DNA of 17,776 nucleotides from a bacterium (GCA_029210545.1 JARGFV010000049.1:1-17776); one strand, 5' to 3'; shown: positions 1,154 to 16,311, counted from the stretch's first letter. Made by a program: numbers and translations. Notes: generated by a model not told the origin, from the sequence alone.

Positions 1154-1156
1154 GCC

Positions 1157-1250
1157 AGTAATCAGTAGTCAGTAATCAGTAGTCAGTAATCAGATAGTCA
1201 GTAATCAGATAGTCCGAAGGTTTTCCCTCTGGAATCTGGAATCGGAATTG
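1157..1250. repeat. Heptad repeat array between gmd and fcl
   Basis: Units agtaatc and agtagtc alternate at 1157-1191, each exactly 7 nt. They are followed by agatagtc, agtaatc and agatagtc to 1214. A second mini-array (1230-1250) has tggaatc twice and then ggaattg. The 15-nt composite at 1185-1199 is repeated exactly at 1200-1214. The array starts 4 nt after the gmd stop codon and ends at the fcl ribosome-binding site. Confidence 0.9.
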
Positions 1251-1260
1251 GAGGTTTTTT

Positions 1261-2202
1261 ATGGAACTTAGCGGAAAGAAAATACTCCTGACCGGCGGCG
1301 ACGGCTTCCTGGGCCGGTTCGTCCAGAAAGAGCTGGTCAGGAACGGTGTCGATAAAAATGACATCCGGATCCCGCACTACATCGATAACGACCTGCGCGT
1401 GATGGAGAACTGCGTCGCGGCTGTGGAAGGAATAGACCTCGTCATTCACCTCGCGGCCAGCGTCGGAGGGATCGGGTTCAACAGGCGTAACCCGGGTGTG
1501 CTGTTTTACGACAACATCATCATGGGGGCCCATCTCATGGAGGCGGCTCGCCGGGAGGGGGTCGGGAAGTTCATCCAGATCGGTACGGTATGCGCCTATC
1601 CCAAGTTCACTCCGGTTCCGTTCAGGGAGGAGAGCCTGTGGGACGGCTATCCCGAAGAAACGAACGCGCCATACGGGATCGCGAAAAAAGCGCTCCTGGT
1701 GCAGGCGCAGGCTTACAGGCAGCAGTACGGTCTTAACGCCATCTACCTTCTTCCCGTCAACCTGTACGGCCCCGGGGACAATTTCGATCTGGAAGATTCC
1801 CACGTTATCCCGGCGCTGATCCGCAAATGTGTCGAGGCGAAAGAGTCCGGATCCAAGGAGATCACGGTCTGGGGTTCGGGTGAACCAACCCGGGAGTTTC
1901 TCTATGTCGAGGATTGCGCAAGGGGGATCGTCATGGCAGCGCGAGCCTATGACGGGTCCGAACCGGTCAACCTTGGTTCCGGTGTGGAGATCTGTATAAA
2001 AGACCTCGTCAACCTCATTGCCAGGTTGACCGGTTTTACCGGTGAGGTCATCTGGAACAGCGCCATGCCTGACGGGCAGCCTCGACGTTGTCTCGATACC
2101 ACAAGAGCTTCCGGCTTCGGTTTCAAGGCGCAGGTCCTGTTCGAGGAGGGACTGGCTGAAACGGTGCGCTGGTACAGCGAGAACAGGAGCCGTTTACGAT
2201 GA
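1261..2202 (+). CDS. fcl: GDP-L-fucose synthase (epimerase/reductase)
   Basis: This 313-residue member of the extended SDR family converts the Gmd product GDP-4-keto-6-deoxymannose to GDP-L-fucose by 3,5-epimerisation and NADPH-dependent reduction. Visible signatures are the Rossmann motif TGGDGFLG (residues 11-18), the GTVCAYPK segment with Cys111 at the place of the family's active-site cysteine, and YxxxK at Y138/K142. The family-typical N-terminal [10 protein letters not shown] lies at 63-72. GGAGG at 1250-1254 sits six T's upstream of the ATG. Its last four bases overlap the manC start as ATGA, which indicates translational coupling. Length is normal and nothing is missing. Confidence 0.95.
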
Positions 2203-3674
2203 ACGCCCTTTACGCTCTCGTCCTGGCCGGCGGTTCCGGGGTCCGCCTGTGGCCGGTGAGCCGCCAATTGGCGCCCAAGCAGTTCATCAACCTGATGGGG
2301 GAACTCACCTTGTTCCAGCAGACGGTCAAAAGGATGGAAACCAGGGTGTCGGCCGACAGGATGGTTTTCGTGACCTCACGGGAGCACGAGGGAGCGATCC
2401 GGGACCAGCTCCGCGGTTATCTCGGCTCAGGGCGCGCTGAAAAGGTCGTCGTTGTGGGTGAACCGGCAGGCCGTAACACGGCTCCGGCTGTCCTGCTGGG
2501 CGCCCGGATCGTTTCCCGGCAAAACCCCGACGCTGTCATGCTGGTGGCCCCTTCCGACCACGTCATCCTCGACTCATGTGCCTTCGCGGACGCCGTGGAT
2601 GAATCCATGTCCGCCGCTGCCAGGGGGATGATCGTGACTTTCGGGATAAAACCCACGAGGCCTGAGACAGGTTACGGCTATATAAGGATCGGCGACCAGG
2701 CCGGCAAGGTCTTCAAGGTCGACAGGTTCGAGGAGAAACCGGACGCGGCAAGGGCTGAGGTTCTTTCCAGCGACAGAAGATACCTCTGGAACAGCGGCAT
2801 CTTCCTTTTTTCCGTCAGGACCATCATGGAGGAGGCCCGGAAACACCTCCCGGAGTTGATGGACGCCCTGGACGGGATCGACCCGGGCGATCTTGCCGGA
2901 CTGGACGAATGCTACGGGAAGCTCCAGGCTGTTTCCCTGGATCACGGGATCATGGAGAAAACTGACCGTGCTGCCGTCAAACCTGTTTCCATGGGTTGGA
3001 GCGATCTTGGAAGCTGGGATTCCTACTACGAGATGAACGATAAGGACATGTTCGGCAACGTGGTCACCGGTGACGCCGTCAGTCTTGACAACGAGGGGTG
3101 CCTCGTCGCCGCCGGGAGCCGTTTACTGGGTGTTGTGGGGATGAAAGACACCATCATCGTCCAGACGGAAGACGCCACACTGCTCTGTCCCAGGGGCCGC
3201 TCCCAGGAAGTCCGGCGTGTCGTCGAGCACCTCGCGGGAACGGGACGGGCCGAAAGCATGATCCACCCCACGGTGGTTCGTCCCTGGGGAGAATATACGG
3301 TCCTCATCGATCAAGGCCGGTACAAGGTGAAGAGGCTCACTGTGGCCCCTGGACAGAAGATGAGCCTTCAGAAGCACGAGCGAAGATCCGAGCACTGGGT
3401 GATGGTGAGCGGGGAGGTCGCGGTCGTCAGGGGAGATGAGAACCTCTTGCTGAAACCCAACGAGGGGGTGACCATCCCCGTGGGTATGCTGCACCGGATC
3501 GAGAACCCGGGACCGGAACCGGCTGAACTCGTGGAGGTTCAACTGGGCGAGTACGTGGGTGAGGACGACATTGTCCGGTATGACGACGATTATGGAAGGG
3601 TTAAAGAAAGTCCAAAGCCCAAGGTCCAAAGGGGAAACCTTCGACCATGGAACGGGGAGCCTGAGGCGCGTTAG
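2199..3674 (+). CDS. manC: Mannose-1-phosphate guanylyltransferase / mannose-6-phosphate isomerase
   Basis: This bifunctional 491-residue protein makes GDP-mannose from mannose-1-phosphate and GTP (N-terminal domain) and interconverts fructose-6-P and mannose-6-P (C-terminal cupin domain). The pyrophosphorylase motif is [12 protein letters not shown] at 11-22, with FEEKP at 177-181 and YLWNSGIF at 195-202. The isomerase domain starts near RPWGEY (361-366). It carries the metal-ligand pattern Q391/H393, E398/H399 and H432. AGGAG lies 9 nt before the ATG, which overlaps the fcl stop. Residues after about 469 do not look like family sequence: from 3607 the coding DNA is a 7-nt repeat array and the stop codon falls in a small hairpin. 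The conserved protein therefore probably ended near YGR (465-467). Confidence 0.95.
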
Positions 3675-3747
3675 CGCCGAGTTCCCATTGCCTCCAGCCT
3701 CTTGCCCATAGCCTGCATTTTTAAAACTTGAAACCTGAAATTTTAAA
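3607..3747. repeat. Heptad repeat arrays spanning manC 3' end and manC-manB gap
   Basis: Three sub-arrays have a 7-nt period. The first (3607-3634) has units aaagtcc, aaagccc, aaggtcc and aaagggg and lies inside the manC reading frame. The second (3686-3713) has four units ending in gcc every 7 nt (cattgcc, tccagcc, tcttgcc, catagcc). The third (3727-3747) has cttgaaa, cctgaaa and ttttaaa and ends 4 nt before the manB ATG. Confidence 0.88.
3662..3681. repeat. Small conserved hairpin containing the manC stop codon
   Basis: The sequence is tgaggcgc, loop gtta, gcgccgag. The GGCGC/GCGCC arms pair, and the manC TAG stop begins in the loop. The same 20-mer with loop acaa recurs at 6428-6447, so the arms are conserved while all or most of the loop differs. 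Confidence 0.75.
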
Positions 3748-3751
3748 CCGT

Positions 3752-5221
3752 ATGGATAATTCTTTTCCTTTTCATATCTTCCGCAAGTACGATATCCGGG
3801 GCCGTTTCGGGACGGATATCAGTCGGCAGGTCGCTGCAAGGATCGGGTACGCTTTTACAGTGCTGTGCCGCGAGCGGACCGGCTCCGGTTCCCCCCTCAT
3901 ATCGGTCGGGATGGACGCCCGGGTCCACTCACCGGCTGTCAGGGAAGCGTTCGCGGCGGGTGTCGGCCAGGCGGGCGGACGCTGGGTGGACCTGGGTCTT
4001 TGTCCCACACCTTTGGTCTATTACAGCGCGTTCACCCTGGACACGGACGGGTTTGCCATGGTTACGGCCAGCCATAACCCGCCGCCGGACAACGGTTTCA
4101 AGCTGGGGATCGGAAAGAATACGATCCACTCCGGGGACATAAAACAGCTGGGCCAGGAGGCATCCGGGAGCCCTGATCTTCCCGACACGTCCACCTTCGA
4201 ACCGGTCGATCACGTGGACATCATTTCCCTTTACCAGCGCGACATGGTGGACAGGTTTTCAGGGCTCGGGGAAAAGTTGAAAAAACTGGACCGGGCTGTC
4301 AGGGTCGTCGTGGACTCGGGAAACGGGACAGCGGGGGTGGTCGTACCACGAATCCTTCGCCAGTTATCTTTCGATGTGGTTGAGCTTTACAGTGAGCCGG
4401 ACGGTACTTTCCCCAACCATCATCCCGATCCGACCCTCCCCGAGGCGCTGCAGGACCTTACTGATGAAGTCGTCCGCGGCGGCGCCGATGTCGGGATCGC
4501 TTTCGACGGGGATGCCGACCGTATCGGTGTCCTGGACGAAAAAGGGCGGATCATCTGGGGTGACATGCTTCTCCTTATCCTGGGTCTGCGGATCATCGAC
4601 GAATGGCGCGGGGGAGGGGAGAGGGGCGACCCGCCCCTCGTGATCTCGGAGGTCAAGGCATCAAGGCTGCTCTACGACGGGATCGAGGCGGCCGGCGGCC
4701 GGTCCCTCATGTGGAAGACAGGGCACTCCCTCATCAAGGCGAAGATGAAGGAAACCATGGCCCAGGCGGCCGGGGAGATGAGCGGACACCTGTTCTTCGC
4801 CGACCGGTATTTCGGTTATGACGATGCCCCTTATGCGGCCCTTCGCCTGCTCGAAACCTATGTCGAGGCTCTTTCCACGGGCCGTTGCCGGCACTTTTCA
4901 GACCTTTTGAGAGGGCTTCCAGGGCTGTACAGCACCCCTGAGATCCGTGTTTCCTGTGAAGAGAGCGGGAAGTTCGACACGGTTGCGCGGTTTGCGGGAT
5001 TGCTGGCCGATCACCGGGGCAGCGGAAAGGAGCCGCTCATCGAAGATATCGTCGATATCGACGGTGTTCGGGTGTTGTTCACCGACGGCTGGGGGCTGCT
5101 GCGCGCAAGCAATACGGGACCTGTCCTTGTCATGCGTTTCGAGGGGACCGACGAGAAAACGGTAAGACGTTACAGAGGACTTTTCGACCGGCTGCTGGGG
5201 GAGGCAAAAGGAACGGTTTGA
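3752..5221 (+). CDS. manB: Phosphomannomutase/phosphoglucomutase
   Basis: This 489-residue alpha-D-phosphohexomutase (AlgC/ManB type) interconverts mannose-6-P and mannose-1-P to feed ManC. The phosphoserine loop is TASHNP with Ser107. The Mg-binding loop is DGDADR (252-257). The sugar-binding loop is GEMSGH (341-346). The phosphate-binding loop is RASNTGP (451-457). All four active-site loops are intact, as is the N-terminal FRKYDIRG. I chose ATG 3752 because the KYDIRG motif normally lies close to the N terminus. The in-frame TTG at 3728 is inside the heptad array and would add eight repeat-encoded residues. No clear Shine-Dalgarno sequence precedes the ATG. The name manB reflects its operon position; phosphoglucomutase activity is also possible. 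Confidence 0.94.
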   Translation: MDNSFPFHIFRKYDIRGRFGTDISRQVAARIGYAFTVLCRERTGSGSPLISVGMDARVHSPAVREAFAAGVGQAGGRWVDLGLCPTPLVYYSAFTLDTDGFAMVTASHNPPPDNGFKLGIGKNTIHSGDIKQLGQEASGSPDLPDTSTFEPVDHVDIISLYQRDMVDRFSGLGEKLKKLDRAVRVVVDSGNGTAGVVVPRILRQLSFDVVELYSEPDGTFPNHHPDPTLPEALQDLTDEVVRGGADVGIAFDGDADRIGVLDEKGRIIWGDMLLLILGLRIIDEWRGGGERGDPPLVISEVKASRLLYDGIEAAGGRSLMWKTGHSLIKAKMKETMAQAAGEMSGHLFFADRYFGYDDAPYAALRLLETYVEALSTGRCRHFSDLLRGLPGLYSTPEIRVSCEESGKFDTVARFAGLLADHRGSGKEPLIEDIVDIDGVRVLFTDGWGLLRASNTGPVLVMRFEGTDEKTVRRYRGLFDRLLGEAKGTV

Positions 5222-5293
5222 AACGCGATATTTCGGCTCTTCCGGGAAATGAGTATCCGCGAATCAGATCAAACGTCGAATGTGGATTTATCA

Positions 5294-5328
5294 CTGTGAA
5301 CTGTAAACCGTAAACGGTAGACTGCCCT
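5294..5328. repeat. Heptad repeat array abutting the ubiA-like start codon
   Basis: Five 7-nt units are present: ctgtgaa, ctgtaaa, ccgtaaa, cggtaga, ctgccct. The last ends 1 nt before the ATG at 5330. The sequence resembles the array at 12431-12479. The rest of the manB-ubiA gap (5222-5293) shows nothing recognisable. Confidence 0.85.
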
Positions 5329-5329
5329 T

Positions 5330-6193
5330 ATGCCATATATTCGTCTCCTCAGGCTCCACCAGTGGATAAAGAACGGCTTCGTGCTGGCCCCGCTCGTCTT
5401 TGCGGGCAGGCTTCTGGAAATGGACTCCGTGGTCCTGGCCCTTTCAGGTTTCACGGCATACTGCTTCGCCTCCAGCGCCACATACGTCTTCAATGACATC
5501 TTCGATCGTGATCAGGATCGCCATCATCCCTTCAAGTGCCGGCGCCCCGTGGCTTCCGGGGAGGTGTCCGTTCCGGCTGCCAATGTCCTCGGTGCCGGCC
5601 TTCTCCTCACATCCATCCTCATCGCCGCCGGGGTGGGGATCCCGTTTCTCTGGACCCTGCTGGCCTATCTGGCCCTCCAGGTCGGTTACAATGTCCTGTT
5701 CAGGAACATGGTCATCCTTGATATCCTTGTCATCGCCCTCGGGTTCGTACTCCGTGCCGTAGCCGGCACCTACGCCATCGATGTTGTCATCTCGCCCTGG
5801 CTGATCCTGTGTACACTGCTCATCGCCCTGTTCCTGGGTTTTGCCAAGCGCCGCCAGGAGATCATCCTCCTTGGGAAAGACGCCGTACAGCACAGGAGGA
5901 TCCTCCAAAGCTACTCAGTTCCCCTGCTGGACCAGCTCATCGGCATCGTCACGGCGGCCACCATCGTTTCCTACGCCATCTACACCCTTTCACCGGATGT
6001 GACGGATCGCATCGGGTCCCCTTACATGATCCTGACGCTTCCTTTTGTGATTTACGGCATTTTCCGGTACCTGTATCTTGTCCACGTGATGGAAAAGGGC
6101 GGCAGCCCAACCAGGGATTTTCTCACTGACGGCCCGCTGCTGGTGTCCACATTTCTCTGGGGCGTGGTGTCGGCTGTGCTGATATATCTTTAA
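5330..6193 (+). CDS. UbiA-family prenyl-phosphate transferase, DPPR synthase-like
   Basis: This 287-residue polytopic membrane protein most resembles decaprenyl-phosphate phosphoribosyltransferase. That enzyme transfers 5-phosphoribose from PRPP to a polyprenyl phosphate at the inner membrane. Evidence is the N-terminal RLHQWIKN, the metal/diphosphate-binding NDxxDxxxD at 55-63 followed by RHHP, and multiple hydrophobic helices ending in WGVVSAVLIYL. A conserved YSVPLLDQL lies around residues 197-205. The ATG is preceded by a heptad array with no visible Shine-Dalgarno sequence. No DprE1/DprE2 epimerase or arabinosyltransferase is present here, so the final product is unknown. UbiA family membership is firm; the exact acceptor and donor are inferred. 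Confidence 0.85.
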   Translation: MPYIRLLRLHQWIKNGFVLAPLVFAGRLLEMDSVVLALSGFTAYCFASSATYVFNDIFDRDQDRHHPFKCRRPVASGEVSVPAANVLGAGLLLTSILIAAGVGIPFLWTLLAYLALQVGYNVLFRNMVILDILVIALGFVLRAVAGTYAIDVVISPWLILCTLLIALFLGFAKRRQEIILLGKDAVQHRRILQSYSVPLLDQLIGIVTAATIVSYAIYTLSPDVTDRIGSPYMILTLPFVIYGIFRYLYLVHVMEKGGSPTRDFLTDGPLLVSTFLWGVVSAVLIYL

Positions 6194-6197
6194 GAGC

Positions 6198-6434
6198 AGT
6201 CCAAAATCCATCCACCTTCGCCATCCCCCTTCGTCAAGACTACGGAGGATATGGAGGCTTCGGTGGACATGAAGTCTAAAGTCCAAAGGGGATTAGAGCG
6301 GGCAATAGGCAATAGGCGAGAGGCTATAGGGAAGAGCAGTTGGCACGATGAAGAACACGGGCTTTTCAACCATTACCTCAAGCCCCCAGCCCATTGCCGG
6401 CCTTCAAAAAACATGGAACGTGAAACGTGAGGCG
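6198..6434. repeat. Repeat-packed gap between ubiA-like gene and DUF362 gene
   Basis: The 269-bp gap holds several period-7 stretches. They are agtccaa/aatccat (6198-6211), aagtcta and aagtcca (about 6272-6285), ggcaata twice then ggcgaga and ggctata (6301-6328), gcc every 7 nt (about 6380-6397), and tggaacg, tgaaacg, tgaggcg (6414-6434). The ggcaata block is the reverse-complement type of the gcc block at 3686-3713. A large fold-back (6211-6268) sits in the middle. Confidence 0.82.
6211..6268. repeat. Imperfect fold-back element
   Basis: Outer arms tccacc and ggtgga pair, and inner arms ccttcgt and acggagg pair with one G-T wobble. The centre is caagac. The rest of the stem is imperfect. 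It looks like a dispersed extragenic palindrome. It has no T-tract, so it is not a convincing terminator. Confidence 0.55.
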
Positions 6435-6447
6435 CACAAGCGCCGAG
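6428..6447. repeat. Second copy of the small GGCGC hairpin
   Basis: The sequence is tgaggcgc, loop acaa, gcgccgag. The arms are identical to those at 3662-3681 and the loop differs. It lies 3 nt upstream of the AGGAG ribosome-binding site of the DUF362 gene, so folding could influence that gene's translation. Confidence 0.75.
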
Positions 6448-6462
6448 CGAAGGAGAACGCAG

Positions 6463-7542
6463 TTGGAAAGATCCAAGGTCGTCGTGCTGAAAACCACCCC
6501 TGCATCGGTCGTTGCCGACTACGGTGAACTGATGAGGCGTGCCGGGTACAGGGAGGTTATCGATCCCAAGATCCCCACGCTTCTGAAGCTTAACCTGTCA
6601 TGGACGAAATATTATCCGGCGTGCTCTTCCCAGCCCTGGCAGGTTCACGGGGTCGTCAAGACCATGATCGACGACGGCTACGAGCGGGACAGGATCATCC
6701 CCATCGAGAACAAGACGGTGGTCACTGACCCGATCAAGGGAGCGATCAACAACAGGTGGATGAAGGTTCTTGACGAATATGGCCTGAAATTCACCCCCTT
6801 GCCCGACGTCAAGTGGGTCACGCACCAGTTCGCAGGGCCGCTGCTCAAGCTCCACGAGATCTTCCCGGAAGGGATCGAGATCCCGGAGATGTTCCTGGGC
6901 AAGAACGTCATTCACCTGCCAACGGTCAAGACCCACGGTCACAGCACGACGACCGGCGCCATCAAGAACTCTTTCGGGGGGCTGCTTAAAACCGTCAGGC
7001 ATTACGCCCACAAATACATGCACGAGGTCCTGGTGGACCTGATGATCATGCAGAAGGAGCTGCACCCCTGCATTTTCGCCGTCATGGACGGGACGGTCGC
7101 CGGCAACGGTGCAGGTCCGAGAACCATGCTTCCTGTGGAGAAGGACTACATCCTGGCCAGTTCAGACAGTGTGGCCATCGACTCGGTCGCCGCCTCCATG
7201 ATGGGTTTTGACCCCATGAGCATCCCTTATCTCAGGATGTGTCACGAGAGGGGATTGGGGATCGCCGACCCGGCCCGGATCGAGGTCGAGGGTGAGGATA
7301 TTGAAGGGGTCAACTTCGGGTTTACCGTCAAGCGCAGCTTCGTGATCTGGGGTGACCAGCTCATCAGGAAGGGGTGGCTGCGTCCCCTGGAAAAGATCCT
7401 TCTTCATTCACCGCTGGTGGCGTGGGCTCCCTTCGCCTCCAACGTCTACCATGACATATTCTGGTACCCGCTGATCGGCATGCCGGAGATAAGGCGGTTC
7501 AACCGCGGCAAATGGGGTCGGCTTTTTGAGTCTTACCGCTAA
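6463..7542 (+). CDS. DUF362 domain-containing protein
   Basis: This 359-residue cytoplasmic-type protein belongs to the DUF362 family, which has no settled biochemical role. The diagnostic stretch is HLPTVKTHGHSTTTGAIKN at 151-169, followed by SFGGLLK, with AVMDGTVAGNGAGPR further on. Many DUF362 proteins carry ferredoxin-like cysteine clusters; none is visible here. I chose TTG 6463 because AGGAG at 6451-6455 is 7 nt upstream. An upstream GTG at 6427 would start inside a repeat and a hairpin. It overlaps the next gene by 17 nt, so both are probably translated together as part of the glycan block. Any role in glycolipid metabolism is inferred from position only. Confidence 0.85.
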   Translation: MERSKVVVLKTTPASVVADYGELMRRAGYREVIDPKIPTLLKLNLSWTKYYPACSSQPWQVHGVVKTMIDDGYERDRIIPIENKTVVTDPIKGAINNRWMKVLDEYGLKFTPLPDVKWVTHQFAGPLLKLHEIFPEGIEIPEMFLGKNVIHLPTVKTHGHSTTTGAIKNSFGGLLKTVRHYAHKYMHEVLVDLMIMQKELHPCIFAVMDGTVAGNGAGPRTMLPVEKDYILASSDSVAIDSVAASMMGFDPMSIPYLRMCHERGLGIADPARIEVEGEDIEGVNFGFTVKRSFVIWGDQLIRKGWLRPLEKILLHSPLVAWAPFASNVYHDIFWYPLIGMPEIRRFNRGKWGRLFESYR

Positions 7543-8557: not shown

Positions 8558-8986
8558 GAGTCTGGCTCAACCGTTCGCCCTCGCGAGCTGGAATTTGGAT
8601 GATGCGATCCCGGTTCCTGTATAAGCGGTGTAATCCTTTTCACAAAAACGCCTATAATATCAATCTATTATGCTTCAGTAGTTAACAAGGCGCTTCACCT
8701 ATGCATTTCATCAATAGCAAGAAAATGGATCCACGAGAAAATGCCGCGCCTTGAAAGGGATGTCCTGGCGGCGCGCGTTGAGGCTGTGCTGGACGTTGTT
8801 AATGTACGGGAAGTGCTGAATAAAACAGATGTACCCGTACTGTACATCGCCGCATCACGGGATCGGGTGGTGCCACGGAAGTGCCTGGACGCTGTATCGA
8901 GTTGATCTGAGTCAGCCAGATTCAATTACGCATAAGAATGATTATGACAAGTTGCAGGTTGGTCAGGCATATTTCTGTTGATGGTG
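8558..8986. other. 429-bp gap without an intact gene
   Basis: This AT-richer stretch lies between the flippase-like gene (+) and the endonuclease gene (-). It contains a hydrolase remnant (8741-8905) and a perfect 8-bp inverted repeat, caaggcgc at 8686-8693 and gcgccttg at 8746-8753. A TATAAT at 8653-8658 has no matching -35 box. I see no terminator or RNA gene, and only a faint trace of period 7 around 8591-8611. Confidence 0.6.
8741..8905 (+). pseudogene. C-terminal fragment of an alpha/beta hydrolase
   Basis: The 54-codon frame ends at TGA 8903-8905. It contains VPVLYIAASRDRVVP near its end, the typical strand and acid-loop segment (with the Asp of the catalytic triad) seen late in alpha/beta-fold hydrolases. 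It is preceded by a helix like those before that strand (LAARVEAVLDVVNVREVL). The nucleophile elbow GxSxG and the final catalytic histidine region are both absent, so the piece is truncated at both ends. The frame stays open upstream to 8603 but shows no further homology I recognise. It probably marks decay or replacement of a gene at this insertion hotspot. Confidence 0.6.
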
Positions 8987-10060
8987 CTAAAGCTCCAAAT
9001 GCAACTGCTCAACATTATGTTTTTCAAAGACTTTTCTGAAAATCAGGTATTTCCTTTCATATCGCATTGATGACGGAACATCCTCATATAGGTAACTGTA
9101 CAACTTACCCACTATCTTCCCAACATAGGAGAACCAGAAGAATCTTCCATCATTCCTTGAATAGATTCGTCTTGGAGGGAACCCGGCTTTTTCCAGTTCG
9201 GCAAGCATCCCTTCGATTAACACTTTAGAGCCGCTGAAGAACCTGGCGTGGCAGGAGTTTGCACCATGCTTGCCGATCGATCCATCCCCATCCCAGCATC
9301 CTCGGATAAAATGACGCACATACGGTTCAGGGACATTGGGAAATTTGATATTCAGACTTTTACGCTCTGAAATTCCAAGTTCAACCAAACGGTCAAATAT
9401 CGTGTCGTTGTAAATAGTGAAACTGTAAATAGCACCAGCTGTTGTATGTTCGTACTTCCTCTCCTTCTGGAAAATGATTTTGGCGTTAGAACACATCAAA
9501 TCAAGAATTTTTCCAAGCAATTCAGGTTCTTTTTGAGCAAAGCTCAGAATTTTTCGCCTTCGTATTTTTGCATTCGCTCCTCGTGTCGGTACTTTTGATA
9601 TATTTCCATCAGTGGCTAACGCACCCAGCACATAGGCCATTTCTGCTGACCACTCATCAAAGAAATTCTCGTTAACATAGCGTTTTTCCAATTGAACTGT
9701 TGTTTTTTCACCTGATTCATCAACCCGATCGAAAGAGATCTTTCCTTTTTCAAGGGCCATGGTTCTGGCGTCACCCAGGGACCTTATTGGTATCTCCCAT
9801 TTGTTCATCTTCTGGGAAACGGCCTGTCTGGTGATTCCGAAGGTCCTTGCGATATCTGACAGTGATTTCGACTGATCCCAGTAAAGCTCAAAAAGAAGGT
9901 CCATGTTCAATTCCTTCGCAAACCTTTTCCCTTTCACCTTGGTTCCGGAGTGCCGCTCCTGGATGAAATCGTTGTAGCATTTCACACACAGACCGCGGGC
10001 GACGTGCTTGATCTCCACGGTTCCGCATCCAGTGCATTTGTTGTGCTTTCTAGCCCACAT
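8987..10060 (-). CDS. Free-standing LAGLIDADG homing endonuclease with zinc-finger and HTH domains
   Basis: With the ATG at 10058-10060 the protein has 357 residues. An N-terminal zinc-knuckle has C9/C12 and C25/C28 (CTGC and GLCVKC). A helix-turn-helix of the DIARTFGITRQAVSQ kind spans about 66-90. Two LAGLIDADG motifs follow: YVLGALATDG with Asp151 and FIRGCWDGDG with Asp259, 108 residues apart. Both catalytic acids are present, so it should be an active single-chain endonuclease. The DNA is visibly AT-richer than its neighbours, suggesting horizontal arrival. Its start follows the amrS stop as TAACATG. Upstream ATGs at 10075 and 10090 would overlap amrS. No intein splice motifs or intron-interrupted host gene are seen, so it is a stand-alone gene or a domesticated regulator. 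Confidence 0.85.
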   Translation of the reverse strand: MWARKHNKCTGCGTVEIKHVARGLCVKCYNDFIQERHSGTKVKGKRFAKELNMDLLFELYWDQSKSLSDIARTFGITRQAVSQKMNKWEIPIRSLGDARTMALEKGKISFDRVDESGEKTTVQLEKRYVNENFFDEWSAEMAYVLGALATDGNISKVPTRGANAKIRRRKILSFAQKEPELLGKILDLMCSNAKIIFQKERKYEHTTAGAIYSFTIYNDTIFDRLVELGISERKSLNIKFPNVPEPYVRHFIRGCWDGDGSIGKHGANSCHARFFSGSKVLIEGMLAELEKAGFPPRRIYSRNDGRFFWFSYVGKIVGKLYSYLYEDVPSSMRYERKYLIFRKVFEKHNVEQLHLEL

Positions 10061-10061
10061 G

Positions 10062-11072
10062 TTACGGTATCCCATCAAATTCCGCACCACACCCTGGACA
10101 CGTTCCCCCTTCCGTTATCCTGTTCTCGGCCACACAGAACCCTCTTCTGGTCAGAAGCGTCTCCTCACAGGCGCTGCAGCGGGTGATATCCTCCCCCAGG
10201 GAGACGTTTCCCAGGTAAACGTACTTCAAACCGGCTTCCTGCCCGATCTTTTCCGCCAACTGCAGTGATTCGACCGGCGTCGGCGGCCTGTCGGTCATTT
10301 TATAGGTCGGGTGAAAACGGGAAATGTGCCATGGGATCTTCGTGTCCACCGATGCGATGAATCCGGCGATGAACTCCAGGGCTCCCCTGTCGTCGTTAAG
10401 GCCCGGGATGAGCAGGGTCGTGACCTCCAGCCAGACGCCGATCTCATGGAGGGTCTCGATGGTTTCGAGTACCGGCGCCAGTGCAGCGCCGCAGATCTTC
10501 CTGTAATGCTCCTCCGTGGCCCCCTTGAGATCGACATTAGCCGCATCGAGGAATTCTCCGGCGAAACGTGTGGATTCCCCGGTCATGAACCCGTTGGTGA
10601 CGAAGACGTTGGAAAGCCCCTCTTCATGCGCCAGAACACCACAATCCCTGGCGAACTCCATGAAAACGGCAGGCTCCGTGTAGGTGTACGATATGGACCT
10701 GCATCCGGTCCTCACGGCGGCCTGGAGCACCTCCTCCGGGGTCGTCCGGTTCCCGGGAATGGGGTCTCTTTTCGGAGCTTCAAGACTGATCTGGTAGTTC
10801 TGGCAGTGGGTGCAGGACATGTTGCAGCCGGCTGTCGCGATGGAATAGGAAAGGGACCCGGGTTGGAAGTGGTAAAGCGGTTTTTTCTCGATGGGGTCCA
10901 CGCTGGCGGCCACAAGCTTGCCGTAGACGAGGCTGAACAGGGTCCCTCCCCTGTTCTCCCTGACGCGACAGATCCCCCTTTTCCCCGGGACGATGCGGCA
11001 CCTGTGGGCGCACAGGCTGCACCTGACGGCGCCGTCGGGCAGTTTTTCCTGGAAAAGGGCCGGTGTTGTCAT
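10062..11072 (-). CDS. amrS: AmmeMemoRadiSam system radical SAM enzyme
   Basis: This 336-residue radical SAM protein is related to pyruvate formate-lyase activating enzymes. The [4Fe-4S]-binding CxxxCxxC is C83/C87/C90 in AGCNMSCTHCQNYQIS. An N-terminal cysteine set (C18, C21, C25, C35) and C-terminal pairs C299/C302 and C325/C328 resemble extra metal sites typical of this subfamily. SYTYTEP (129-134) and ATAGCN also fit. The usual partners AMMECR1 and Memo-like proteins are not in the window, and the family's reaction is not settled. It lies 98 bp downstream of the FHA gene on the same strand, across a repeat fold-back. No strong Shine-Dalgarno sequence precedes the ATG. The frame is intact despite the endonuclease gene beginning right at its stop. 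Confidence 0.92.
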   Translation of the reverse strand: MTTPALFQEKLPDGAVRCSLCAHRCRIVPGKRGICRVRENRGGTLFSLVYGKLVAASVDPIEKKPLYHFQPGSLSYSIATAGCNMSCTHCQNYQISLEAPKRDPIPGNRTTPEEVLQAAVRTGCRSISYTYTEPAVFMEFARDCGVLAHEEGLSNVFVTNGFMTGESTRFAGEFLDAANVDLKGATEEHYRKICGAALAPVLETIETLHEIGVWLEVTTLLIPGLNDDRGALEFIAGFIASVDTKIPWHISRFHPTYKMTDRPPTPVESLQLAEKIGQEAGLKYVYLGNVSLGEDITRCSACEETLLTRRGFCVAENRITEGGTCPGCGAEFDGIP

Positions 11073-11081
11073 AAAAGTCAG

Positions 11082-11163
11082 GGCCGTTTACGTTGGTGCG
11101 TGTGTGCGTGAAGCGTAAAAAGACAAAGATTTTGTCGCACGTACGCTTGTACGCTCTACGCAC
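11082..11163. repeat. Heptad arrays forming a fold-back between FHA gene and amrS
   Basis: Read on the minus strand, units at 11082-11116 are acgcttc, acgcaca, cacgcac, caacgta and aacggcc. Units at 11135-11163 are gtgcgta, gagcgta, caagcgta and cgtgcga. The two arms are partly complementary (gtgcgt 11096-11101 with acgcac 11158-11163; aagcgt with acgctt). They enclose a perfect hairpin gacaaa-gat-tttgtc at 11122-11136. Confidence 0.72.
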
Positions 11164-11170
11164 GGACGTT

Positions 11171-12355
11171 CTAACTTCCCGTTGGCTCAAACAGCTTCCT
11201 GCAGTTGGGACAGCGGATATGGACCTTTTTTCCGGTGTAAAGGCTTTTGGCTTCAAGTGAACCGGCCGCCTGGCAGTGAGGGCAGGATATCCTTACCTTG
11301 GCGTTACGGTCCATGGCCATGGTGGCGTCGTGGCTGTCGGTGGAGACCAGCTGGACGTCTTCGGCAGGCGATCGGGCGAGGACCACCTGGAGGATGTAGC
11401 TGCCGATGGTGATACGGTCGCCGTCCTGAAGGGAAAACTCCCTGGTGAAATGCTCGTTGACGAAGATACCGTTGAGGCTGCCGAGATCCCTGACGATAAC
11501 CTTCCCGCCCCGTTCCTCCAAGGCTGCGTGATGGCGGGAAACTCCCGCGTCACCCAGTACGAGGTCGGCCTCCTCACTGCGTCCGATGATGAAGGGGAAC
11601 TTGTGAACGCTGACCCTCTTCAAGGTCCTCACCTTGTCACGGATGATGAGTTCGGGAAGGGGGCGGGTGTAATGCCTGTAGACCCCTCCGTTATATAGGG
11701 CTTCCCCTTCAACGTAATCCTCGGCGGGACTTGTCCGCATATCCTCGTAAATACGGATCTTGATGTGCTGTCCACGGATCTGGTAGCTTTCGATCCTCTT
11801 GAACAGGTCGATCCACTCCAGTCCGCCGGAAGATTCAACGAACTGGTCATAGAAGTACGCCTTGACCACTTTCCCGCCCTGTGCATAGGCGAGGCTGAAC
11901 TGTCCATTCTGGACCAGTGCCACGAGGGCGTCTTTACGCCCTTCCATGAGCCCCACGACCTGGTTCTCAACCCGGATGAACTCGGCGGATCCCTGGGTCT
12001 CGGGATGACACTCCTGGAGGACAAGGATTGATTTGATCAGGACCGGGTCAGTCTTGACGAAGTAGAGGCGGCACTGCGGATGCTGGGCCACGTAGACGAA
12101 GAAATCCCTGATGGCTGTCGTTTCGATATCCTGGAAATCGTTGAAGATCCCGGCCGTGTATGGTTTTCGCTGGAAAAACAGCAGGTAGCGCGGCTGCCTT
12201 ACATCCTGCTCAGATGTGACACAGTAACCGAACTCGAAATCGGCAAGATCACCCTCCCCTTTCAGGATCTGGTCGAAGAAGGCCGGATCGGGTGTCACAT
12301 CCTCGAGGACCACGGAAGTGAACGGAAAGGGCAGAAGGCTGTGAGGTGTGTCCAT
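11171..12355 (-). CDS. FHA domain protein with C-terminal zinc ribbon
   Basis: This 394-residue protein ends in a phosphothreonine-binding FHA domain (about 236-328): GRS at 258-260, SRHH at 273-276 and SLNG at 293-296 are the canonical binding loops. A four-cysteine zinc ribbon follows (C358/C361 and C382/C385). Between them lies a short TDSHDATMAMD segment (339-349) whose Thr could itself be phosphorylated. The first 235 residues are not recognised; two stretches (about 57-90 and 145-190) look like a weak internal duplication. No signal peptide or membrane helix is visible, so it is probably cytoplasmic. AGGAG (12363-12367 on the opposite strand) lies 7 nt before the ATG, and a sigma70-like promoter is just upstream. 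It is a likely reader of the Thr kinase encoded at 13684-16113. Confidence 0.85.
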   Translation of the reverse strand: MDTPHSLLPFPFTSVVLEDVTPDPAFFDQILKGEGDLADFEFGYCVTSEQDVRQPRYLLFFQRKPYTAGIFNDFQDIETTAIRDFFVYVAQHPQCRLYFVKTDPVLIKSILVLQECHPETQGSAEFIRVENQVVGLMEGRKDALVALVQNGQFSLAYAQGGKVVKAYFYDQFVESSGGLEWIDLFKRIESYQIRGQHIKIRIYEDMRTSPAEDYVEGEALYNGGVYRHYTRPLPELIIRDKVRTLKRVSVHKFPFIIGRSEEADLVLGDAGVSRHHAALEERGGKVIVRDLGSLNGIFVNEHFTREFSLQDGDRITIGSYILQVVLARSPAEDVQLVSTDSHDATMAMDRNAKVRISCPHCQAAGSLEAKSLYTGKKVHIRCPNCRKLFEPTGS

Positions 12356-12379
12356 TGAAGGTCTCCTGATTAAAGGCAG

Positions 12380-12408
12380 ATGTTATCCCACGAGGAGTTT
12401 GTTGACAA
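12380..12408 (-). promoter_or_regulatory. Putative sigma70-type promoter of the FHA gene
   Basis: On the minus strand TTGTCA (12403-12408) is followed after exactly 17 nt by TAACAT (12380-12385). A transcript would start near 12372, leaving a leader of about 17 nt that contains the AGGAG site. Its -35 box overlaps that of the divergent promoter. Confidence 0.5.
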
Positions 12409-12430
12409 GGGTCAGGAGCGAACATACTAT
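12402..12430 (+). promoter_or_regulatory. Putative sigma70-type promoter of the pentapeptide gene
   Basis: A consensus TTGACA (12402-12407) is followed after exactly 17 nt by TACTAT (12425-12430). The predicted start near 12437 places the whole heptad array (12431-12479) in the 5' leader of the pentapeptide mRNA. Confidence 0.5.
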
Positions 12431-12479
12431 GAAGCGTGAAGCGGTTGACTGTGAACCGTAAACTGTGCACTGCAAACCG
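12431..12479. repeat. Seven-unit heptad array in the pentapeptide gene leader
   Basis: Seven consecutive 7-nt units are present: gaagcgt, gaagcgg, ttgactg, tgaaccg, taaactg, tgcactg, caaaccg. It ends 2 nt before the GGAG ribosome-binding site at 12482-12485. Confidence 0.88.
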
Positions 12480-12493
12480 GCGGAGCTACCCTT

Positions 12494-13582
12494 TTGGCCG
12501 ATTACACACCGGAAGAGATACTGAATAAGAGAGGACGGGGTGAAAGCCTCGCGGGCGCCAACCTGGTCCGGATCTCCCTTCGTGGGGAGGACCTTTCAGG
12601 GATCGACCTTTCCGGGGCGAACCTGCAGTATGCGGATCTCACCGACGCGAACCTCTGCAAAGCCGACCTGACGGGAGCTGACCTGTCCTACGCCACCCTT
12701 AACGGCACCCGTCTCGAAGCCGCCAGGCTGTCTAGGAGTCAACTTGTCGGAGTCGAGATGACCGGTGCCGTTTTATCCGGATCGGATCTTGCGGGCGCGA
12801 ACATGGACGACGCCAGGATCGGCAATTGCGACCTTGCCGGGGCTGTGCTCACCGGTGCCACGGTACGGCGGGCTTCCGGTGAAAAGGTCCACGCCCCGGG
12901 CGGCGTTTTCAACGAGGCCGACCTGGAGGAGGCACAGCTGCCGGAAGCCAATTTCCGTGGAGCGTCCATGATCAGGGCCAACCTGGCCAAGGCTGCGCTG
13001 GCAAAAGCGGATCTTTCAGGTTGCGACATGAAGGGGGCGATCCTGACGCGCGCAAACATGGAGGAATCAGTCCTCATGTCGGCCGGATTCGTGGAGGCCA
13101 GCCTCGTCAAGGCTAACCTCAAGGGCGTCCGCGCTGCCGGGGCGGATTTCACACTATCCAACCTCACGGGTTCTGACCTTTCAGGGGGAAGTTTTACCAA
13201 ATCGGTGTTCCGTGGCACAGAGATGTCCCAGACCTTGCTCAACGTGGCCAACTTCACCGAGTGTGACCTGCGTTATGCCAGGTTAACCTATGCCACGGCG
13301 GAATCTTCCTCCTTTTCAAAGGCATCCTTTGCCGCCGGCAACCTTTCGGAAGCAAAGTTCAAGAAATGCCAGATCTCCGGCGCGGACCTGTCCGGTGCCA
13401 GGATGGCGGGATGCAGTCTGCTGGGTTCTGATCTTTCGGGTTCCAACCTGAGAGGTGCGGACATATCGAGAGCCAATGTGGGCGGGACGAACTTTTCCCG
13501 TTCTGACATGACAGGGGCAACCATTGTCGGGACCGATCTCGCCGATGCGAGACTGGAGGGGACGAAGCACCCGGGGGGGTAA
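12494..13582 (+). CDS. Pentapeptide-repeat protein
   Basis: Nearly all of this 362-residue protein consists of A(D/N)LxG-type pentapeptides, which fold into a right-handed quadrilateral beta-helix. The N-terminal cap [14 protein letters not shown] (residues 5-18) precedes repeats starting with LAGANL. The run is interrupted once around 128-140 ([13 protein letters not shown]) and then continues to near the C terminus. No signal peptide or membrane segment is seen. The start is TTG 12494, with GGAG 8 nt upstream and no closer ATG. Related proteins include DNA-mimicking gyrase protectors and many of unknown role; nothing here identifies a partner. It faces the kinase gene across a shared terminator and lies back to back with the FHA gene. 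Confidence 0.92.
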
Positions 13583-13589
13583 AAGGATT

Positions 13590-13679
13590 AAAATCCAAAA
13601 TCCAAGATCCAAAAAGGCCACCGTTACGGTGGCTTCCTTTTGCTCTTATCTTGGATCTTAGATATTGGACCTTGGATTG
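13590..13679. repeat. Opposed heptad arrays flanking the shared terminator
   Basis: The left array (13590-13617) has units aaaatcc, aaaatcc, aagatcc and aaaaagg. The right array (13645-13679) has cttatct, tggatct, tagatat, tggacct and tggattg, which is the same repeat type on the opposite strand. The arms can pair (aagatccaa 13604-13612 with ttggatctt 13651-13659), extending the central terminator hairpin. Confidence 0.85.
13611..13642. terminator. Bidirectional intrinsic terminator between convergent genes
   Basis: A perfect 7-bp stem, gccaccg (13617-13623) and cggtggc (13627-13633), has loop tta. It is followed by ttcctttt on the + strand and preceded by aaaaa, which reads as TTTTT on the - strand. 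It serves both the pentapeptide gene (+) and the kinase gene (-). Confidence 0.85.
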
Positions 13680-13683
13680 GCTC

Positions 13684-16113
13684 TCAGGTGAGTAATCCTT
13701 TCAGTTCATCAATGGCCCCGGCTACATCGGGGAACCTGTTGGCCGGATCCTTGGCCATGCATCGCATGATGAAACCGGAAAGTTCGGTGGAGATCTCGGG
13801 GTTGTGTACCGTGGGGGGTTCCGGTTCGGTGTGAACGTGATGGTAGAGCACATCACCATCCCTGAAGGGGACCTTTCCGGTGATAAACTCGTAAAGAGTG
13901 ATACCCATGGCATACTGGTCGGCAAGGTGCCCGACCTCTCCCCCGATGATCTGCTCCGGCGACATGTAGTAAGGTGTGCCGGCCATCTGGGTATGGGTTT
14001 TCCGCCCTTCCTCGATAACCCTGGCAAGTCCGAAATCCGTGATCTTGACCTGTTTTTCCGCCTTGGCCCAGAGCAGGTTGGCGGGTTTTATGTCCCTGTG
14101 GACGATCCCCTTGCTGTGGGCATAGGCCAGGGCCTTGAACACCTGGGCCGTGAGGACAAGGGCGGTCTTGATGGGGAACTTCCCCTGCTGCAGCAGCAGC
14201 TCCTTTAATGAATCTCCCTCCACCATCTCCATGATGATGAAGAACTCTCCCCTGTCTTCGTCGGCATCGTAAATGGTCACGATATTGGGATGGGACAGGC
14301 GGGCTGCCGATTTTGCTTCCCTGAGAAACATGTCCAGGATCTTCTGGTCTCTGTGGACCTGCGGCGGCAGGACCTTGTACGCAACGACGCGGTCCAGAAG
14401 GGTATCTTTTGCTTTGTAGACGACACCCATCCCTCCCCTTCCCAGTTCGTCGATGATCTGGTACCGGCTTGTTTTCCTGCCCCCTCGTTCCTGCGTTGGG
14501 GCGACCATGGTCATGTCCGGGGACTGGGCCAGGGGCATGGCCGCTCCGGGCGAGGAGGATCCCAGGACCTTTTTGATATCCTGGACCTGGTCCTTGGCGT
14601 CACGGTAGTGGTAGTCCACGAGGAGGATCTTTTCGAGAAACGACAGGGCACCCTGCAGCTGCCCTGTTTCTTTAAGGGCTGCCGCATAGCGGTAATGTGA
14701 GTCCAGGTTGTCCCTTCGGACGTTTTCCTCGGCCAGTGCCTTCTGGTAGCTCGCGATGGCCATGGACCATTGGTTCTGATCGTAGAAAATCTCACCCAGG
14801 AGATGGTGTGCCTCCTTGAAATGGCTGTCGCTTTCATCCACCTTCTGGAGCTCTACGGTAGCCTCTTTCCTCTTCCCGATCTCCAGGAGGCTCTTTCCGG
14901 CCTCGTAATGGATGCCCGCGGTGATGAGGGCTTCGACCTCCCTCTCCTTCTCCCCGAGCTTCCCATAGATACGGGCTGCATCCTCTGCTTTTCCGGCACT
15001 CATGAACATGGATGCCGCCTCGGGAAGCCGTCCCATCTCCAGGAGCAGATCGGCGGCCGATTTTTTATCGCCGTGCTGCAAATAGGCGTCCATCGCCAGA
15101 TCCTGCAGGTCGTTCTCAATGAAAAGCCTGGCAGCGCGGTTCCACTCACCAAGGCGTGAGAACAGTTCGGCGGCCTCCACCGGTTTCCCTTCCGCGAGGA
15201 GAGCCTCGGCGACCCGGAGAGCTCCCTCATCGGCATGGTCGGAAGATTCAAGGACACGCGCGGCGGAGGTCGTATCCTTGCCCCGGATGTAAAGGTCGGA
15301 GGCTTTCCCTTTTTCCCCCAGTTCCTCGTAAAGGCTGCCCGACTCGGTGTAGCGGCCGCCTAGTTCAAGGGCCTGGGCGGCTTTCAGTTTCTGGCCGCTC
15401 TCGAGAAAACATTTCGAGGCGATCAGGGCGATATTACCCGAAACGGCATCTTCCTCGAGAGTGAGAGAAGAGTCCCTTCGGCTGGACCTTTCCTGGAGGG
15501 TTCGAAGGAGGAAAGGAGCTGCCCGGTCGTATTCACCAGCTTCGGCGAGGAGTTCACCGGCTTTCTGATAAAATCCGACATTGGCGTAGCACTCAGCCGC
15601 TTTTACGGGATGCCCTCCCCTTGCGTAAAAAGGCGCCGCCTCCCCGACCTGCCCGATCCTCAGGAGGTTGTCGGCCGCGTTGGTGTAATCTCTTGCCTTG
15701 ATGAAAAGCTCAGCGGCTTGTTCATAGTCCTCTATCCGAACAAAACATTTGGCTGCGTTGGCAAAGTCGTTGTTCTGCAGGCAGGCATTGGACGCACTAT
15801 GGTAATCCTCGATCTTCACGTACATCCTGGCAGCTTCCATGTAGTGTCCGGCTGCCAGGTAAAGGTCACCGGCCTCCTTGTAGCTCCCCTTCTTTTCAGC
15901 CTTCTTTGCTTTCCTGACCAGGACTTGAACAGGTCGGTCGTGCTTCTCGTCCGATTCAGGCGCCCTTTTGGAAAGGACGAACAGAAGGAAAAAGAGGATG
16001 GAAAGGCCGCCGGACAGGACTGTGATGCTCTCCATAAGGCCGATGCCCCAGGGGGAAGGGATGGATAGCCGGGCGAGGTAACCCTCGATGATGGTCTGGT
16101 AGGAGGCAAGCAT
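13684..16113 (-). CDS. Membrane-anchored TPR Ser/Thr protein kinase (Hanks type)
   Basis: This 809-residue protein has an unusual order. A short N-terminal segment and one membrane helix (about 29-48, ITVLSGGLSILFFLLFVL) come first. A basic linker and a long array of TPR-like helical repeats follow (about 60-530). A complete kinase domain is at the C terminus (551-809). Kinase signatures are the Gly loop LGRGGMG, VAYK with Lys580, HRDIKPAN with catalytic Asp674, DFG with Asp693, and GTPYYMSPE. Positive charges after the helix place TPRs and kinase in the cytoplasm. The linker before the kinase contains SPDMTMVAPTQE (Thr535, Thr540), a plausible autophosphorylation/FHA docking site. A promoter lies only 8 nt before the ATG and no Shine-Dalgarno sequence is visible. 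It ends at the terminator shared with the pentapeptide gene. Confidence 0.93.
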   Translation of the reverse strand: MLASYQTIIEGYLARLSIPSPWGIGLMESITVLSGGLSILFFLLFVLSKRAPESDEKHDRPVQVLVRKAKKAEKKGSYKEAGDLYLAAGHYMEAARMYVKIEDYHSASNACLQNNDFANAAKCFVRIEDYEQAAELFIKARDYTNAADNLLRIGQVGEAAPFYARGGHPVKAAECYANVGFYQKAGELLAEAGEYDRAAPFLLRTLQERSSRRDSSLTLEEDAVSGNIALIASKCFLESGQKLKAAQALELGGRYTESGSLYEELGEKGKASDLYIRGKDTTSAARVLESSDHADEGALRVAEALLAEGKPVEAAELFSRLGEWNRAARLFIENDLQDLAMDAYLQHGDKKSAADLLLEMGRLPEAASMFMSAGKAEDAARIYGKLGEKEREVEALITAGIHYEAGKSLLEIGKRKEATVELQKVDESDSHFKEAHHLLGEIFYDQNQWSMAIASYQKALAEENVRRDNLDSHYRYAAALKETGQLQGALSFLEKILLVDYHYRDAKDQVQDIKKVLGSSSPGAAMPLAQSPDMTMVAPTQERGGRKTSRYQIIDELGRGGMGVVYKAKDTLLDRVVAYKVLPPQVHRDQKILDMFLREAKSAARLSHPNIVTIYDADEDRGEFFIIMEMVEGDSLKELLLQQGKFPIKTALVLTAQVFKALAYAHSKGIVHRDIKPANLLWAKAEKQVKITDFGLARVIEEGRKTHTQMAGTPYYMSPEQIIGGEVGHLADQYAMGITLYEFITGKVPFRDGDVLYHHVHTEPEPPTVHNPEISTELSGFIMRCMAKDPANRFPDVAGAIDELKGLLT

Positions 16114-16121
16114 TTGGAAGG

Positions 16122-16150
16122 ATTATAGGGAAAATAGGCGCAATGCTCAA
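16122..16150 (-). promoter_or_regulatory. Putative promoter giving a near-leaderless kinase mRNA
   Basis: On the minus strand TTGAGC (16145-16150), then 17 nt, then a perfect TATAAT (16122-16127). The kinase ATG begins 9 nt downstream of the -10 box, so the transcript would start at or within about 3 nt of the start codon. This agrees with the missing Shine-Dalgarno sequence. Confidence 0.5.
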
Positions 16151-16257
16151 CTCAAAGGAGCAAAACTTCAGGACCTTTATCATTTTCTTGATGAGTTGAG
16201 CCTTGCAGTTCAGAAGTGCACAGGCGCATGAGTGCAGTAAACCGCATAAAATGGGCC

Positions 16258-16280
16258 AAACAAAAGGGCCTCTCGGCCCT
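16258..16280 (-). terminator. Intrinsic terminator of the PHP gene
   Basis: Read on the minus strand, a 6-bp stem agggcc/ggccct with loop gaga (16265-16280) is followed by TTTTGTTT. It lies about 36 nt downstream of the PHP stop codon and isolates that gene from the kinase. Confidence 0.8.
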
Positions 16281-16283
16281 GTT

Positions 16284-16311
16284 TGAGATCTGAAATTTGA
16301 AATTTGAGATC
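16284..16311. repeat. Four-unit heptad array next to the PHP stop codon
   Basis: Units tgagatc, tgaaatt, tgaaatt and tgagatc form an A-B-B-A arrangement with strict 7-nt spacing. They lie between the PHP stop codon and its terminator. A more degenerate period-7 trace may continue at about 16207-16248. Confidence 0.85.

Follow-up and report, generated by a model that had tools for sequence, protein, structure and literature searches.

The window is a 17,776-nt stretch of bacterial DNA (GCA_029210545.1, JARGFV010000049.1:1-17776) and forms one contig (C49) of the source genome, G000, whose assembly comprises 2.72 Mb in 241 contigs. The gaps between its protein genes (1842 nt) hold the heptamer arrays and hairpins listed in Table 1. 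The window has no Rfam match, and known structured RNAs are rejected on this ground as the identity of the arrays. An island at 8558-10090 is free of heptamer arrays; on the minus strand (8987-10090) it encodes a LAGLIDADG-type protein that has a helix-turn-helix and whose gene overlaps a radical SAM gene. Viral relatives of the window's pentapeptide protein were sought, and none was found. A dispersed element of ~165 nt with multiple hairpins (ATCAATGACTTACGGAGTGAGTCATTGATTTGGGCGCC...) lies in inverted orientation at the two contig ends (1-84 and 17700-17776) and also occurs at L048:1535-1700 and 4093-4258. About 40 places in the same genome are listed for this element, at 79-97% identity, and copies occur family-wide; in the relative G011, one copy lies inside a heptamer array.

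Table 1. Heptamer arrays, inverted arms and hairpins in the gaps of the window.
Feature	Position	Strand	Evidence
7-mer array CAGTAAT/CAGTAGT, two 2-nt slips	1156-1214	+	TRF; gap z 5.5
7-mer array TCTGGAA, directly 5' of the next gene	1228-1252	+	TRF
7-mer array AAAGTCC	3607-3631	+	TRF; gap z 7.0
Degenerate 7-mer run CCCATTGCCTCCAGCCTCTTGCCCATAGCC	3684-3713	+	Sequence; gap z 7.0
7-mer run TTGAAAC/CTGAAAT	3721-3750	+	Sequence; gap z 7.0
7-mer array ACTGTGA/ACTGTAA/ACCGTAA	5293-5322	+	Gap z 3.3
Short run AAGTCTAAAGTCCAAAGG	6271-6289	+	Sequence; gap z 5.6
7-mer array GGCAATA, left arm of weak inverted pair	6301-6333	+	TRF
Right arm of weak pair, TTACCTCAAGCCCCCAGCCCATTGCC	6373-6398	-	Inverted scoring
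7-mer array AAACGTG	6409-6430	+	TRF
Hairpin left arm, CGTGTGTGCGTGAAGCGTAAAA, not lag-7 periodic	11099-11120	+	Inverted score, fold
Hairpin right arm, TTGTACGCTCTACGCACGGACG	11147-11168	-	Fold, inverted score
Weak 7/14-mer array ACTGTGAACCGCAA, unit as in 5293-5322	12448-12477	+	TRF; gap z 2.1
7-mer array AAAATCC, left arm of inverted pair	13590-13614	+	TRF
Terminator-like hairpin between the two arms	13614-13640	.	Fold
Right arm of AAAATCC pair, ATCTTGGATCTTAGATATTGGACCTTGG	13648-13677	-	TRF, fold, inverted score
7-mer array TGAGATC/TGAAATT (TGAGATN family)	16282-16310	-	TRF; gap z 2.1

The 7-nt period is a property of the gaps. Their identity at lag 7 reaches 0.344, where dinucleotide shuffles give 0.254 (z 8.2), and harmonics appear at lags 14 (z 5.4) and 21 (z 4.5). 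Lags 5, 6, 9 and 10 lie near zero and lag 8 reaches z 2.7; the same self-match test found no lag-7 signal in the genes of the window. In a 418-kb sample of the source genome the lag-7 signal rises to z 25.6, with 76 array segments where shuffles predict 1.3. One of these is a run of N, which leaves 75 arrays; lag 8 yields 23 segments. The window is array-rich, since just 28% of the gaps in the genome sample carry a 7-nt array. Within the family, we find 25 arrays in a 100-kb sample of G001, 34 in 92 kb of G003, and few in G002 and G009, while 19 single samples from other families (≤20 kb each) contain one array in total. The heptamer-array feature is real and lineage-dependent. An earlier note, made from the window alone, had described 7-nt arrays in most gaps and asked for a comparison of lag 7 with neighbouring lags and shuffles; the excess it expected holds genome-wide, and the arrays of G001 and G003 show that it is not confined to one assembly. 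Chance or an assembly artefact has a negligible probability. The source is indeed a fragmented metagenome genome, but the signal is genome-wide and arrays recur in independent assemblies, including the single-contig G001 and G008 and finished plasmids.

Individual sites are less uniform than that note had proposed. It called the period strict, but units are 73-88% alike by TRF, and 8-nt steps are present. Periodicity is confirmed at 1157-1250, where two units follow each other (CAGTAAT, then TCTGGAA), at 5294-5328, at 6198-6434, which is made of several short arrays, and at 13590-13679 (z 4.5), where the arrangement is an inverted pair. The site at 3607-3747 keeps its lag-7 signal but consists of three dissimilar arrays with a hairpin between them, not a single array. 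At 12431-12479 the period is weak and TRF reports a 14-nt unit, while 16284-16311 is periodic locally, with a low score for the gap as a whole. The site at 11082-11163 is not a 7-nt array (z 0.4) but a near-perfect hairpin, whose arms score 11.0 when inverted (shuffles, at most 10.2) and whose fold of -40.7 kcal/mol has z -3.5. The gap that holds it (11073-11170) measures about 15-30 nt in G001, G002, G006, G007 and G009, which represent five other genera.

Terminal inverted repeats are clear at two places in the window, 11099-11168 and 13594-13669, and weak at 6308-6398. The AAAATCC pair (13594-13612 against 13651-13669) scores 14.6, with a shuffle maximum of 10.0 and a fold z of -4.6. Its convergent gap (13583-13683) is only 22 nt in G009; in G007 it carries an AAAATCC array. 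For the weak pair (6308-6333 against 6373-6398) the score is 10.6, with shuffles reaching 10.4. Inverted scoring against shuffles found no partner at the remaining window sites, including the array at 1156-1214.

Units recur. The earlier note took each gap to have its own unit, but 27 of the 75 arrays in the genome sample reuse one, against 5.3 expected when letters are shuffled within each unit. Within the window, ACTGTGAACCGTAAAC is common to the arrays at 5293 and 12448, and AAAGTCC at 3607 appears again near 6280; AATCAGT, the unit of 1156-1214, is the commonest in the sample (seven arrays). A single fixed genome unit is rejected by the 48 distinct units among these 75 arrays. Eleven units are common to G000 and G003, which belong to different genera, where 2.2 are expected. 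The TGAGATN pattern has 55 matches in G000, 168 in G003, 153 in G008, 41 in G011 and 19 in G002; no TGAGATN array was found in the family's other sampled genera, and outside the family it is sporadic (10/374 genomes). Arrays of TGAGATTT, a unit of the window's family, also occur in an unrelated family (L249-L258; G161, G299). Self-complementary steps are depleted in the units (GC 0.38, CG 0.45 and TA 0.51 of expectation), as if self-folding arrays get lost. Period-8 arrays are present at L188, L190, L192 and L194 (G011) and at L107 and L202, some built on the self-complementary GTGCACNN and others, which have inverted partners, on TCTCCGTG/TCGCCGCG. Period-8 arrays take the place of the 7-mer arrays of orthologous G003 gaps. 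G-quadruplexes are rejected as a general cause, most units here not being G-rich.

Arrays in the same gap differ between congeners. G003 and G011 have genes that are about 90% identical. Across their orthologous gaps, one array is fully identical and another is interrupted in G011 by a dispersed element of a different kind; most of the rest have been swapped for an array of another unit or for octamers. In one operon, the arms ATTCCAN/TGGAATN of the G011 gaps correspond to ATCTCAN/TGAGATN in G003. Between G009 and G004 (84-86% identity) units are retained, with 7-nt gains and losses, and L185/L247 and L336/L340 likewise differ by +7/-7. The earlier note had proposed that unit numbers be compared across strains; between close relatives they vary by such gains and losses. 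We conclude that slippage exists, yet whole arms also get replaced.

Plain polymerase slippage would make these arrays ordinary simple repeats, 7 nt being the stretch held by the polymerase (Mrazek 2007, as cited in PMC4679880 and PMC4692102). The 7-nt gains and losses fit it, as does the finding that in many genomes heptanucleotides prevail among the long simple repeats (PMC4679880). It does not predict that one array is swapped within a gap of ~90%-identical congeners while another array there is unchanged, nor does it predict the in-register inverted partners, the IVP genes between private inverted arms and the sites lacking both arms and gene that are described below. Slippage of single units is rejected as a complete account by block replacement and paired arms, and we consider plain slippage an unlikely explanation.

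Arrays might instead serve as sites for a protein that binds DNA or RNA, which has been suggested for the TAACTGA arrays of Beggiatoaceae (MacGregor 2015, PMC4679880) and for the paired 7- and 8-mer arrays of Geobacter metallireducens (PMC2700814). In G000 there is a mild excess of arrays 15-25 nt upstream of start codons, but this clustering was not seen in G003, and arrays also lie directly after stop codons and between convergent genes. Units moreover vary among gaps and are swapped between congeners. Regulatory sites are therefore very unlikely, and a start-codon regulator in particular is rejected, the placement bias being weak and not common to G003.

We show that about a third of arrays face an inverted copy of their unit, a key feature that the earlier note had overlooked. 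In G000, 35% of arrays have an inverted copy of their unit in the same gap, against 8% with shuffled flanks; direct copies accompany 13%. Inverted partners accompany 43% and 29% of arrays in two relatives, and about 65% of the G000 arrays have no inverted partner detected. Paired arrays can form long stems (e.g., G003 L049:8449-8535). Such stems, and the terminator-like hairpin inside the AAAATCC arms, would fit transcript-end hairpins, that is, terminators or mRNA stabilisers under selection. This reading is highly improbable, however: inverted partners are present in every gap orientation, the arms are absent from orthologous gaps of other genera, and elsewhere arms surround IVP genes and whole elements.

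In unrelated bacteria, genes of the 23S-rRNA-intervening-sequence protein family (IVP or S23, PF05635) mostly lie between inverted heptamer arms. In the G011 gap L185:2930-3556, a PF05635 gene (E 4.7e-29) is placed between ATTCCAN/TGGAATN arms, and the orthologous G003 gap lacks it; both genomes have PF05635 genes. Further loci come from plasmids of Nostoc, Calothrix, Stanieria, Pseudanabaena, Aulosira and Riemerella and from 31 IMG/VR contigs. The latter may be host DNA or provirus, since no IVP was found in the named phages of INPHARED. Nearly all these IVP genes lie between inverted 7-mer (in a few cases 8-mer) arrays with a unit private to the locus, such as AGTAGGG/CCCTACT, TCGGCTT/AAGCCGA or AGAGTGG/CCACTCT. 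Arrays occur on both sides of 29 of the 43 IVP genes but of none of the 63 other genes at the same loci, and an inverted flank match of at least 15 occurs at 33/43 and 1/63, respectively. After reduction to non-redundant loci (80% identity), 24 of 30 have inverted arms. Among controls, 3.7% of 870 pairs made by swapping arms between loci are inverted, as are 2 of 20 other genes whose flanks are noncoding. Among 83 ordinary genes of the array-rich relatives that likewise have noncoding flanks, 23 have two-sided arrays but only 6 an inverted match, so that there the inverted match, and not the mere presence of arrays on both sides, is diagnostic of IVP. Arm identity in register is 0.89 at IVP loci and drops to 0.65-0.67 when one arm is slid by 7 nt; the arms therefore behave as true terminal inverted repeats. 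Two loci have unusual neighbours. On a Pseudanabaena galeata plasmid (L332), a type I-D CRISPR-Cas locus carries an IVP gene with long TTAGCTT/AAAAGCT arms between its cas6 and cas4 genes. Comparison of L329 and L342 shows an IVP element on the opposite strand between the ribonucleotide reductase beta and alpha genes in Nostoc edaphicum, and its absence in Calothrix NIES-4105.

Filled and element-free sites can be compared between close relatives in four plasmid contexts: after a TraM gene, and between ribonucleotide reductase, secretion and two hypothetical genes. The arms, too, are missing from sites without IVP, with one exception: at the TraM site, L341 has arms but no IVP. Some of the filled and unfilled plasmid sites differ by more than a clean insertion, and a possible target-site duplication (ATTCTAA) is seen at one site only.

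An element without IVP is also dispersed. In Nostoc N6 (L347), a 182-nt element that has heptamer arms but no IVP interrupts an IVP gene that is intact in two relatives. In all, 43 cyanobacterial plasmids carry this element at 94 places; nine aligned copies have common ends (TTGAAGAAG...CTGTTT) in unlike flanks. Seven base pairs of its core show compensatory change among these copies, suggesting constraint on a folded single strand. The element has the unit TCAGAAG/TCAGGAG, as do the IVP elements L334, L337 and L346 from the same cyanobacterial group, which would fit a non-autonomous partner. We linked neither a transposase nor a reverse transcriptase to the elements and observed no movement.

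For the most part, the window's 7-mer arrays are probably either inverted arms of tiny selfish hairpin elements akin to the intervening sequences (IVSs) of 23S rRNA, or single arms that such elements have left behind. A complete element would comprise a left arm of about four imperfect heptamers (sometimes octamers), a gene for the IVP/S23 four-helix bundle, and a right arm, which in the same register reads as the reverse complement of the left one. Versions without IVP would also move, presumably with IVP or another factor in trans, and single arms would be leftovers of decay or nested insertion. The window's family would have mainly IVP-less versions. No IVP gene was found in the window or in about 438 kb of the 2.72-Mb genome that was searched; its arrays are thus probably IVP-less arms and decayed single arms of non-autonomous or decayed copies, the unpaired arrays presumably being arms as well.

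The strand may act as RNA, by analogy with the excision of 23S IVSs (e.g., that of Coxiella) by RNase III, and the transcript of an intergenic element would then form a long stem with IVP in its loop. Two processes might keep the arms complementary, namely copying of one arm from the other by folding back, or selection on the stem; agreement in register despite element-specific units requires one of the two. Heptamer number would shift by slippage. The earlier note had postulated a process that copies or selects a 7-nt phase. Something does copy blocks, but the 7-nt step more plausibly reflects how the arms of a selfish hairpin element are built internally. What stands of that reading overall is the genome-wide excess common to relatives, not the view of units as private to gaps.

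Arms of selfish elements would account for heptamers in scattered, unrelated bacteria. We tentatively put forward, as a possibility somewhat short of an even chance, that STRR, TAACTGA, GGGAATC and MTYCTGA arrays and the units described here are arms of one superfamily of IVS/IVP-type selfish hairpins. Such hairpins would colonise the DNA between genes and, in rare cases, rRNA, and would gain new units through joint change in both arms, giving families with private heptamers. If true, two puzzles merge, namely the 7-nt preference of long simple repeats and the role of the widespread S23/IVP genes, and a class of 100-500 nt elements that shapes intergenic DNA is predicted.

Several known systems resemble these elements in part. 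MITEs and REP sequences are likewise small, intergenic inverted-repeat elements with many copies and no enzyme of their own, and the cyanobacterial IVP-less element has the many copies, sharp ends and unlike flanks of a MITE. Unlike theirs, the ends here are periodic 7-mers that vary by element family, and no transposase family was found. The bAvd protein of diversity-generating retroelements is a small four-helix bundle that works with a reverse transcriptase. IVP is likewise a small four-helix bundle, a resemblance that offers a lead for mechanism only.

According to Mrazek (2007, as cited in PMC4679880), most bacterial genomes have heptanucleotides as their most abundant long simple repeats. 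The earlier note did not recognise the form seen here among known heptamer repeats, but arrays of TAACTGA, GGGAATC and GGGGA(C/T)T had already been reported in other phyla (PMC4679880, PMC4692102), and Microcystis mixes several units. The window's arrays resemble these LSSR/STRR repeats of cyanobacteria, Xanthomonas (GGGAATC) and Beggiatoaceae (TAACTGA) in being intergenic heptamer arrays that are sporadic across phyla: their tandem 7-nt units are enriched in intergenic DNA, and unit number varies among close relatives. LSSR/STRR mostly have one or few units per genome and no link to IVP, whereas dozens of related, imperfect units per genome occur here. Xanthomonas campestris has 70 inverted pairs of GGGAATC arrays (PMC4692102), and its protein XCC0516 (PDB 2gsc) is a relative of IVP. 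The tandem hepta- and octanucleotide arrays of Geobacter metallireducens, with opposite-strand pairs at variable distance and the consensus MTYCTGA, are alike by description and were interpreted as global-regulator sites (PMC2700814).

The closest likeness is to the 23S IVSs of Coxiella and Leptospira, sporadic elements whose S23/IVP ORF is enclosed by terminal inverted repeats that pair as a long stem, and which have been called selfish (PMC4990558). The Coxiella IVS has an S23 ORF between inverted termini whose stem is 28 bp long, and RNase III excises it (PMC4990558). Known IVSs occupy helices 9, 25 or 45 of 23S rRNA and are excised by RNase III, whereas the elements here, including the window's arrays, lie between protein genes and not inside 23S rRNA, each with its own unit and many without an ORF. 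Heptamer arrays, the inverted pairs of Xanthomonas and rRNA IVSs are each known; their joining appears to be new. We found no paper in the open-licence literature that joins heptamer arrays to IVS/IVP, and the nearest precedent is the Coxiella IVS itself, which carries GACAGAT heptamers whose number varies between strains (PMC4990558).
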